In this document: positions 3,342 through 50,973 of the stretch, piece after piece
Numbering within the stretch: position 1 is the stretch's first letter
Layout: each line of letters starts with the position of its first letter
DNA from: an uncultured Flavobacteriaceae bacterium
Lineage (GTDB): Bacteria > Bacteroidota > Bacteroidia > Flavobacteriales > Flavobacteriaceae
Length of the DNA stretch: 64,000 nt
Assembly: GCA_938029725.1 (NCBI GenBank)
Contig: CALHGE010000014.1
Location: 1 to 64,000 of the forward strand
Direction of reading: 5' to 3'
Program-made: the position numbers and the translations under genes
The notes under the pieces: generated by a model
Told to the model about the DNA's origin: nothing
Seen by the model: the letters and a program-made list of their open reading frames with translations, nothing else
Databases searched by the model: none

Positions 3342-3410
3342 AATATGTATTTTTAAATAGTTTATTTTTTAATTAATCTCATAAAGTCAAAATACATACC
3401 AACCATAATT

Positions 3411-3429
3411 TAGTGACGTTTTGTCACTA
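3411..3429. promoter_or_regulatory. Perfect inverted repeat upstream of hsp20
   Basis: TAGTGAC, five bases, GTCACTA: perfect 7-bp arms, centred about 79 bp upstream of the hsp20 start codon. A short-spaced, non-coding palindrome at this place is most simply an operator. The protein that would bind it is unknown. Confidence 0.5.
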
Positions 3430-3445
3430 TTACTATTCAAATAGC

Positions 3446-3458
3446 TGTCATAATGTCA
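3446..3458 (-). promoter_or_regulatory. TGACA-N3-TGACA element upstream of hsp20
   Basis: Read toward hsp20 this is TGACATTATGACA, two TGACA units 3 bp apart. The grpE promoter has TGACATTTTGACA in the same orientation, identical at 12 of 13 positions. I infer a shared heat-shock control element. Confidence 0.5.
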
Positions 3459-43757: not shown

Positions 43758-44921
43758 TTATTTACTAGCAAACAACTTTACGTCCTCCTCAGTTACTTCA
43801 CTACCTCCTAAAATAATCAGTCGCTCGACAACATTTCGAAGCTCTCTAATGTTACCGGTCCAATCATAGGCTTTTAATAAATTGATGGCTTTATCAGAAA
43901 AGGTTTTCTTTGCCACACCTTGCTCACTGGTGATCTTCTTTGAAAAGTGATTGATAAGTAAAGGAATATCATCACGCCTATCATTCAATGCAGGGACTTT
44001 AATCAAAATCACAGCAAGGCGGTGATATAAATCTTCTCGAAATCTTCCCTCTGAAATTTCCTTTTTCAAATCTTTATTCGTCGCGGCAAGTACGCGAACA
44101 TCTACTTTTATATCCTTATCGGAACCTACTCTAGAAATTTTACTCTCCTGAAGCGCTCGTAATACTTTCGCTTGCGCGGACAAGCTCATATCGCCAATCT
44201 CATCAAGAAAAATAGTTCCTTTATTCGCGGCTTCAAATTTACCTGCTCTATCTTTTACTGCAGATGTAAACGCCCCTTTTACATGCCCAAAAAGCTCACT
44301 TTCAATTAATTCAGATGGAATCGCAGCACAGTTTACCTCAATAAATGGAGCAGCACTTCTCGGACTCTTTTCATGCAACCAATGTGCAACTAATTCTTTT
44401 CCCGTTCCGTTTGAACCAGTAATTAGCACCCGGGCGTCAGTCGGCGCTACTTTTTCAATCATGTCTTGGATAACAGCTAATTCCTTGCTATCACCAATCA
44501 TCTCATAGTTCTTACTGACCTTCTTCTTTAGAATCTTATTTTCTACCACCAATTCTTTACGATCTAAAGCGTTACGTACGGTAGTCAATAATCGATTTAA
44601 ATCTGGCGGCTTGGAGATATAGTCAAAAGCACCAGCACGCATAGTATTCACAGCAGTATCTAAGTCTCCGTGACCTGATATCATTATAAAAGGAATCTCA
44701 GGTTTTATCTTACGAGCAGCTTCGAGAACCTCAACGCCATCCATCTTTGGCATTTTTATATCGCAGAGCACCAAATCGTAGTCATTATTTTTTACAGCTT
44801 CCAGGCCTCTTAATCCATCTTCTGCCTCTTCAAGTTGATACCCATCATTTTCTTCAGACAGTATTTTTACCAATACTCTACGAATTGCAGCTTCATCTTC
44901 AATCACTAATATTTTTGACAT
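43758..44921 (-). CDS. Sigma-54 activator-type response regulator lacking a DNA-binding domain
   Basis: 387 aa. Receiver domain (1-120, phospho-acceptor D54 in LVLCDIKMPKMDG, K104), then AAA+ sigma-54 interaction domain (about 140-375): Walker A ITGSNGTGKE, Walker B GTIFLDEIGD, R-fingers REDLYHRLAV. The loop that touches sigma-54 reads GAFTSA (216-221), not GAFTGA. The protein ends just after the AAA+ lid at EEDVKLFASK, with no Fis-type helix-turn-helix. Last gene in a leftward block after the DUF6268-type barrel. Confidence 0.93.
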   Translation of the reverse strand: MSKILVIEDEAAIRRVLVKILSEENDGYQLEEAEDGLRGLEAVKNNDYDLVLCDIKMPKMDGVEVLEAARKIKPEIPFIMISGHGDLDTAVNTMRAGAFDYISKPPDLNRLLTTVRNALDRKELVVENKILKKKVSKNYEMIGDSKELAVIQDMIEKVAPTDARVLITGSNGTGKELVAHWLHEKSPRSAAPFIEVNCAAIPSELIESELFGHVKGAFTSAVKDRAGKFEAANKGTIFLDEIGDMSLSAQAKVLRALQESKISRVGSDKDIKVDVRVLAATNKDLKKEISEGRFREDLYHRLAVILIKVPALNDRRDDIPLLINHFSKKITSEQGVAKKTFSDKAINLLKAYDWTGNIRELRNVVERLIILGGSEVTEEDVKLFASK

Positions 44922-49214: not shown

Positions 49215-50330
49215 CTATGAGAACATATCTTTTACTTTTTCAAAAAAAGATTTATCAGATTTTTCAGGCTTAGGCTCGAAATTATCGTTGTTCTTCATCC
49301 GCTCAAAGAACTCTTTTTGCTCTTTGTTTAGCTCTTTTGGTGTCCATACATTTACATGTACTAACAAATCACCACTTCCATAGCCATTAAGGCTAGAAAC
49401 ACCTTTACCTCTTAGGCGGAGTATTTTTCCAGATTGAATTCCTGGTTCTAATTTTATGCGGACTTTTCCTCCAACAGAATCAATCTCTTTTGACGTTCCT
49501 AATACGGCATCTGAAATACTTACATATAAATCGTAATGTAAATTATCGCCTTCACGCTTTAAAGTGTCATGATCAATCGTTTCTATGGCAACAAGCAAAT
49601 CTCCTGGAATACCATTTCCTGGAGCTTCATTTCCTTTATTAGGAACTTTCAATTGCATACCCTCTTCAACACCTGCAGGAATGTTTATTGATACCGTTTC
49701 TTCGGTAACTTTTAGTCCTTGACCGTCAGCGTCATTTGGGCGCTTATCAATCATTTGCCCACTACCTCCGCAAGCACTGCATGGTGCCGCCGTTTGCATT
49801 CTACCTAAAATCGTATTCGTGATTTTTGTCACCTGACCTTGCCCATTACAGGCAGCACAAGTTTTATAGGTCACTCCATCTGCTTGCACTTTTCTGCGAA
49901 CTTTTACCTTTTTCTCAACGCCGTTAGCAACTTCCTCGAGTGTTAGCTTTACATGAATTCTTAGGTTACTCCCTTTCACACGACGTTGGCCACCACCACC
50001 ACCGAAACCGCCGAAGCCACCACCACCACCAAAGATATCACCAAACTGACTGAATATATCATCCATATTCATACCGCCGCCGCCAAAGCCGCCGCCGCCG
50101 CGCCCTCCTTCAAAGGCCGAGTGACCAAATTGGTCATAACGTGCTTTTTTGTCACCGTCGCTAAGTACTTCGTAAGCTTCAGCTGCCTTTTTAAAATTCT
50201 CTTCAGCTGCTGAATCTCCGGGGTTTTTATCAGGATGATACTGCACCGCTTTCTTGCGATAGGCCTTTTTTATCTCAGCTGCGTTCGCATTCTTGGTAAT
50301 CCCTAAAATTTCGTAATAATCTTGCTTCAT
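49215..50330 (-). CDS. dnaJ: Chaperone DnaJ with a reduced zinc domain
   Basis: 371 aa, co-chaperone of DnaK. J-domain (1-70) with HPD at 32-34; very Gly-rich G/F region (about 75-115); the Cys domain follows. Canonical DnaJ has four CxxCxGxG repeats; here only two remain, C158-A-A-C161-N-G-Q-G and C184-S-A-C187-G-G-S-G. The places of the first and fourth repeats read VQADGVTY and NDADGQGL without cysteines. So zinc centre I is missing and centre II kept. C-terminal substrate domains are normal. 9 bp after grpE. Confidence 0.96.
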   Translation of the reverse strand: MKQDYYEILGITKNANAAEIKKAYRKKAVQYHPDKNPGDSAAEENFKKAAEAYEVLSDGDKKARYDQFGHSAFEGGRGGGGFGGGGMNMDDIFSQFGDIFGGGGGFGGFGGGGGQRRVKGSNLRIHVKLTLEEVANGVEKKVKVRRKVQADGVTYKTCAACNGQGQVTKITNTILGRMQTAAPCSACGGSGQMIDKRPNDADGQGLKVTEETVSINIPAGVEEGMQLKVPNKGNEAPGNGIPGDLLVAIETIDHDTLKREGDNLHYDLYVSISDAVLGTSKEIDSVGGKVRIKLEPGIQSGKILRLRGKGVSSLNGYGSGDLLVHVNVWTPKELNKEQKEFFERMKNNDNFEPKPEKSDKSFFEKVKDMFS

Positions 50331-50339
50331 GCTTTCTTC

Positions 50340-50900
50340 TTAGTTTCCGACCACCACTTTTGGATGACGGATAATCTTATCACCCAACTTGTATCCTTTT
50401 TCAATCACATCAATGATCTTCCCTTTTAGCTTTTTACTCGGTGCGGGTATTTGCGTAATTGCATCGTGTTTTTCGGCATCAAAGGTATCACCTTGCTTGG
50501 CTTCTACCTCTGTTAAGCCTTTATTTTTAAGGGTTTCTTTAAACTTATTACTAATAAGTTCCACGCCTTTGAACATCTCTTTATCTTCAGATTTAGCAAG
50601 TTCTTTCATGCCTCTGTCAAAATCATCCATTACTGGTAACAAGGAAACAATCACTTCTTGACCGGCGGTCTTAAACAAGTCCATACGCTCTTTGGATGTT
50701 CGTTTTTTATAATTTTCGAACTCCGCAAAAAGACGTAAAAATTTATCCTTTTCCTTCCCTAATTCATCTTGCAATTTTTCTTCAACTGTCTGCTCATCTT
50801 CTTCCTCAAGAATTTCTGCAGCAGCCGTTTCAGCTTCTGTATGATCTTGCGTGTCAGCAATGATATCTTCTAATTCTTCGTTTTTATCTTTTTCACTCAT
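50340..50900 (-). CDS. grpE: Nucleotide exchange factor GrpE
   Basis: 186 aa from the ATG at 50900 (MSEKDKNEELED). Acidic disordered N-terminus (to about 45), long coiled-coil helix (EEKLQDELGKEKDKFLRLFAEFENYKKRTSKER), then the beta domain with FDAEKHDAITQIPAPSKKLKGKIIDVIEKGYKLGDKIIRHPKVVV. Releases ADP from DnaK. Heads the grpE-dnaJ operon and has a TACTTTTG promoter with the TGACA pair shared with hsp20. The track's 22 extra residues are not supported. Confidence 0.96.
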   Translation of the reverse strand: MSEKDKNEELEDIIADTQDHTEAETAAAEILEEEDEQTVEEKLQDELGKEKDKFLRLFAEFENYKKRTSKERMDLFKTAGQEVIVSLLPVMDDFDRGMKELAKSEDKEMFKGVELISNKFKETLKNKGLTEVEAKQGDTFDAEKHDAITQIPAPSKKLKGKIIDVIEKGYKLGDKIIRHPKVVVGN

Positions 50901-50934: not shown

Positions 50935-50973
50935 CAAAAGTACTGCCAATTCTTGAAAAATGTCAAAATGTCA
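50935..50973 (-). promoter_or_regulatory. grpE-dnaJ promoter with heat-shock-like element
   Basis: Minus strand: TACTTTTG (50935-50942) fits TAnnTTTG, and a TTG lies 21 bp upstream. That TTG is inside TGACATTTTGACA (50961-50973), the element that also occurs upstream of hsp20 with one base change. The overlap with the -33 suggests a regulator or an alternative sigma factor acts here. Confidence 0.65.

Follow-up and report, generated by a model that had tools for sequence, protein, structure and literature searches.

A promoter-proximal operator at sigma-54-type chaperone promoters of the class Bacteroidia and EBP2 as its putative binding protein

Described heat-shock control systems and the present operator

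The link between sigma-54 and flavobacterial chaperone promoters is already known, while the operator described here and the protein likely to bind it appear to be new. In Flavobacterium psychrophilum, the mapped transcription starts of groESL, lon, dnaK, grpE-dnaJ, htpG and clpB lie behind the sigma-54 motif SM4, the sigma-54 chaperone genes fall mostly into one co-expression cluster, and three PF00158 proteins are encoded, none of which is assigned as the activator in the available portion of the report, where the account of SM4 gives neither an upstream operator nor a fixed spacing (PMC9723704). Similarly, an in silico sigma-54 survey from 2025 found GroEL, IbpA, GroES, GrpE, DnaJ and DnaK enriched behind Bacteroidota sigma-54 promoters, most in Flavobacteriia; this survey was based on a promoter matrix only, and the terms 'UAS' and 'upstream activat' are absent from its text (PMC12316311). 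The openly readable literature covered by our search gave no account of the operator, the spacing or the activator.

Similar to PspF (TIGR02974), whose gene is self-repressed, the candidate activator named EBP2 in this study has an N-terminal AAA+ domain and a Fis helix-turn-helix, and no receiver domain. It scores 271.9 against the PspF equivalog TIGR02974, below the cut-off of 443.55, and differs from PspF in an extra linker of ~120 aa with a conserved helix and in the position of its putative operators beside chaperone promoters. The Myxococcus xanthus protein HsfA, an NtrC-like regulator of lonD, resembles EBP2 as a sigma-54-type activator of a heat-shock gene, but is of the two-component type, with one known target gene. 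The HrcA/CIRCE system likewise places an inverted repeat at chaperone promoters, but the CIRCE sequence TTAGCACTC-N9-GAGTGCTAA is not matched by the present operator, TGWCA-N3-TGWCA, and HrcA was found in 0 of 21 genomes, the control search being positive in 7 of 14 known genomes. HrcA/CIRCE was therefore rejected as the control system, which agrees with the preliminary description of this DNA.

Operator and promoter anatomy upstream of hsp20 and grpE

The features of the window, by which we mean the whole 64-kb stretch of DNA analysed, are collected in Table 1. The preliminary description had reported two 13-mers in the same orientation, identical at 12 of 13 positions, upstream of hsp20 and grpE, had taken both genes to encode chaperones, and had noted a perfect TAGTGAC-N5-GTCACTA palindrome at hsp20, and each of these observations was reproduced. 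Its separation of the palindrome from the TGACA pair was given up. Because TGACA and TGTCA are reverse complements which differ at the central A/T, the variants TGACA-N3-TGACA, TGACA-N3-TGTCA and TGTCA-N3-TGACA of the pair represent one symmetric site, TGWCA-N3-TGWCA, and the palindrome and the direct repeat are thus the same operator, with two copies at hsp20 and a single one at grpE. The TAGTGAC said to precede the grpE copy is present, but it overlaps the first TGAC of that copy and is not a separate element. In gene sense, the upstream region of hsp20 reads TGACATTATGACA-N19-TGACAAAACGTCA-N11-TTGGTATGTATTTTGAC and that of grpE reads TGACATTTTGACA-N11-TTGGCAGTACTTTTGCC. Among same-genus hsp20 promoters that contain the unit, all 11 place the tandem copies exactly 32 bp apart; in a genome from another family the distance is 31 bp. 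The listed TTG start of grpE at 50966 lies upstream of the promoter, so that its use is unlikely; the NCBIfam GrpE models matched the product of this gene below their cut-offs.

Table 1. Operators, promoter elements and genes in the window
Feature	Position	Strand	Remarks
hsp20 distal operator copy TGACATTATGACA	3446..3458	-	
hsp20 proximal operator copy TGACAAAACGTCA	3414..3426	-	core of palindrome 3411-3429; one mismatch to TGWCA-N3-TGWCA
hsp20 sigma-54-type -24/-12 element TTGGTATGTATTTTG	3388..3402	-	11 bp downstream of proximal operator
hsp20, small heat-shock protein, 141 aa	2916..3341	-	Pfam PF00011, HSP20 2.4e-18
grpE-dnaJ operator TGACATTTTGACA	50961..50973	-	perfect in 13/13 genus members
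grpE sigma-54-type -24/-12 element TTGGCAGTACTTTTG	50935..50949	-	11 bp downstream of operator
grpE, ATG at 50900	50340..50900	-	Pfam PF01025, GrpE 4.8e-38
dnaJ, second gene of grpE unit	49215..50330	-	Pfam
EBP1, second sigma-54 activator, NtrC-like receiver + AAA+	43758..44921	-	

The preliminary description contained neither a candidate binding protein nor the partner of the operator, a sigma-54-type -24/-12 element at a fixed distance of 11 bp. We defined the composite as TGWCA-N3-TGWCA, 11 bp and TTGGYA-N6-TTG. For the gap scan, promoters were picked by gene (grpE, dnaK and hsp20 in 21 genomes) and the operator was scored at gaps 0 to 30. The results showed that TTGGYA-N6-TTG is present within one mismatch in 61 of these gene-chosen promoters, and that there is a single sharp optimum at gap 11, where 7.8 of 10 operator positions were matched in comparison to 1.6 at gap 10 and 1.5 at gap 12; minor peaks at gaps 3 and 19 stem from the half-site period of 8 bp. 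All 39 distinct promoter sequences share an invariant GG-N10-G; the base after the last G is C in only 8 of the 39, with GA or GT mostly standing in place of the canonical -12 'GC', so that the sigma-54 consensus is relaxed in these promoters. RpoN is encoded in 21 of 21 genomes. Counted from the -24/-12 element, the centre of the putative operator is near -45, and not at the remote upstream positions (about -80 to -150) expected of enhancer-binding proteins, typical enhancers being farther from the promoter than the operator found here. As a side observation, the -12 GC (positions 15-16 of the element) has mostly become G[A/T]C in the lineage, and standard sigma-54 matrices may thus under-call such promoters.

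The exact TGACA-N3-TGACA pair occurs twice in the window, at hsp20 and grpE only, against an expectation of 0.11 (2 copies arose in 1 of 100 shuffles), and TGWCA-N3-TGWCA gives the same two sites only, with 0.17 expected. Once one mismatch is allowed, the pair shows no enrichment in the window (2 vs. 3.77 expected), and the exact 13-mer pair has 7 copies genome-wide, some inside unrelated genes and not all at heat-shock genes, for which reasons the bare 13-mer is weak evidence and bare TGACA-N3-TGACA was rejected as the element. In contrast, the 39-bp composite of operator and downstream promoter, at up to 3 mismatches, gave 2 matches in the window vs. 0.10 expected and 0 of 100 shuffles, and it constitutes strong evidence. 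The concern raised earlier, that the element could be as common elsewhere, would apply to the loose bare 13-mer and not to the composite.

Target genes and spread of the composite

At up to 2 mismatches in 17 genomes, the composite gave 64 matches in comparison to 4 for the pattern read backwards. As assigned from the downstream reading frames and gene positions, with the ClpB, Lon and HtpG identities confirmed on examples, 49 matches belong to chaperone or protease genes (grpE 13, dnaK 11, clpB 8, hsp20 7, htpG 4, groES 4, lon 1 and clpC-like 1), 8 to the miaB-EBP2 operon and 7 lie elsewhere (secA 1, others 6). One genome, G018, has no composite at this threshold. In the window's own genome (G000), the matches are at grpE-dnaJ, dnaK, hsp20, clpB and the miaB-EBP2 operon; its htpG site is at gap 12 and its groESL site is degenerate, and groES operators have one good half-site only. 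When the gap is fixed at 11, htpG of G000 and most groES promoters escape detection, and all of these were read by hand. The element proposed to be sought at dnaK, groESL, clpB and htpG of this and related genomes is therefore present, in looser form at groESL and htpG of G000. Around EBP2 in 80 named Flavobacteriaceae loci, matches with up to 3 mismatches were found for 35 of the 52 groES genes recognised there and for 36 of 1146 other frames, 35 of these 36 being further groES or miaB frames. The composite was also observed upstream of secA in G015 (L176) and of a thioredoxin gene in G064 (L227), which are possible extra regulon members.

The phylum survey covered 158 genomes at up to 1 mismatch to the composite, which was found in 28 of 39 genomes of the class Bacteroidia vs. 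2 of 119 outside it, with the control pattern found in none (Fisher p about 7e-20, counting genomes as independent of kinship); the remaining 11 class genomes were without it at this threshold. Among the 28 loci read in the survey, 26 were at grpE, htpG, dnaK or hsp20, one was at a thioredoxin gene and one at miaB-EBP2, with the identities of the hsp20s, the thioredoxin and one GrpE checked. This class-wide occurrence at chaperone genes supports the earlier suggestion of a heat-shock control element of the lineage. The chaperone gene with the best composite differs by lineage among the class-level genomes (L205 to L230), which suggests turnover of site strength inside a conserved regulon. The two loci outside the class, L231 (G021) and L232 (G049), have the composite upstream of hsp20 genes and miaB operons without the box, and transfer or an older origin are both possible.

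The candidate activator EBP2 and competing explanations

EBP2 is a miaB-linked, PspF-like protein of about 385-435 aa, composed of an AAA+ sigma-54 domain (PF00158, 1.1e-66) with nearly invariant GESGVGKE (Walker) and GAFTGA loop, a lid, the linker with its conserved helix and the C-terminal Fis helix-turn-helix (HTH_8, 1.8e-11). Its AlphaFold model is weak (mean pLDDT 56.6, shallow alignment) and usable for the linker helix and the C-terminal domain only, most of residues 381-420 having pLDDT above 80. A full-length orthologue was found in 24 of 24 class genomes searched, with 53-64% identity outside the window's own genome, and EBP2 forms a monophyletic clade with support 100/99. In most order-level genomes, the gene lies in the cluster miaB-EBP2-lptE-TPR gene-secG-groES-groEL, in which lptE, the TPR gene and secG are presumptive names.

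The operator, or box, also precedes the EBP2 operon, where named Flavobacteriaceae loci carried it exactly in 41 of 73 cases and within 1 mismatch in 63 of 73, with none for the reversed control; the scan probably overlooked some boxes where the assumed start codon lay too far upstream. At this operon, the box is usually about 18 bp before TATCTTTG and covers the sigma-A -33 region, and the -24 GG is absent, which is what autorepression by EBP2 would look like. No single observation carries more weight than a natural rearrangement in G020, in which EBP2 is unlinked from miaB and the box has moved with it: an exact box, TGACATTTTGTCA (0 mismatches), precedes EBP2, and miaB has no box (best 4 mismatches). 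In G134 and G019, EBP2 is the only activator detected and both keep box-bearing chaperone promoters, with a composite of 0 mismatches at htpG in G134. Relatives of EBP2 outside the class had no box at miaB.

We consider it probable that the element serves as operator for a heat-shock regulon dependent on sigma-54 and is putatively bound by EBP2. Throughout the class, the operator stands 11 bp upstream of TTGGYA-N6-TTG at dnaK, grpE-dnaJ, hsp20, clpB, htpG and groESL and sometimes at lon or clpC. The operator, its spacing, gene specificity and spread, its link to the EBP2 gene and the absence of HrcA are, as read here, properties of the genome sequences themselves, while the assignment of the chaperone promoters as probable sigma-54 promoters is supported by published mapping in a relative. 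We infer that EBP2 would bind the box, activate the chaperone genes and repress its own. Bound to TGWCA-N3-TGWCA upstream of the -24/-12 promoter, EBP2 would adjoin the polymerase and, under heat or stress from misfolded proteins, drive formation of the open complex. On the box over the sigma-A -33 region of its own promoter, EBP2 would lead to self-repression, and feedback by a chaperone could plausibly act on the conserved helical linker (about residues 278-328).

The points against this reading are the relaxed -12 'GC', the single good half-site of groES operators, the lack of a composite in G018 and in 11 of 39 class genomes at the thresholds applied, the box-free miaB of EBP2 relatives outside the class, and the rigid promoter-near spacing, which would also suit a repressor or another type of activator. 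A repressor whose operator is the box would block the chaperone promoters in unstressed cells while EBP2 acts elsewhere, and a site held rigidly next to the promoter would be compatible with such occlusion. In the absence of HrcA, the usual repressor, a different protein would have to take this role, and the P. gingivalis response regulator RprY binds the groES, dnaK and clpB promoters and acts as a repressor, although its site is undefined in the available part of that report (PMC3646045). We nevertheless regard a repressor as unlikely, since a sigma-54 promoter depends on an activator, which usually has a binding site, and the box is the only conserved upstream site seen; in addition, the box accompanies the EBP2 gene when relocated, and such an association with the box was observed for no other gene. 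It is very improbable that these are ordinary sigma-A promoters in which TTTTGACA of the box is the -33 TTG and TACTTTTG of grpE the -7 box. In the genus, grpE fits TTG-N21-TAnnTTTG and the miaB-EBP2 operon promoter does have such an arrangement, but dnaK, hsp20, clpB and htpG are without TAnnTTTG at that position, GG-N10-G is invariant, a general signature would not be restricted to chaperone genes, and the starts of the F. psychrophilum orthologues carry the sigma-54 motif in the available portion of the mapping report (PMC9723704). The sigma-A arrangement was thus rejected except for the EBP2 operon itself.

Encoded in the window 4.3 kb downstream of dnaJ, EBP1 is the top-ranking PF00158 match in G000, and in many genomes of the order its gene is found at a distance of 2-6 kb from grpE-dnaJ, but the protein has no detectable DNA-binding domain and was not detected in G019 and G134, which retain box-bearing promoters. 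EBP1 was for these reasons rejected as the operator binder, and we give very little credence to it as the heat-shock activator; we regard it as a conserved gene neighbour that probably does not bind the operator, might have a helper role and is dispensable to the argument for EBP2. If an AT-rich word had simply recurred by chance near both genes, the copies of the bare 13-mer inside unrelated genes would be accommodated, but for the composite this explanation is refuted by the statistics and the class-wide recurrence at chaperone genes, which leave it a negligible probability.

If EBP2 is the protein that acts at the operator, a wider proposal may be put forward tentatively, and we hold it somewhat short of even: the class Bacteroidia would run its core heat-shock response via sigma-54 and one dedicated, vertically inherited, self-repressing EBP2 at a promoter-proximal operator of fixed distance, with chaperone feedback on the linker, as a third architecture beside sigma-32 and HrcA/CIRCE. 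The HrcA system is missing from the Bacteroidia, which include gut Bacteroides as well as flavobacteria of sea and soil. With the geometry of the operator defined and a candidate protein named, the question of the activator at sigma-54 chaperone promoters becomes directly testable, and if true, the proposal would extend the known modes of heat-shock control by a sigma-54 route.
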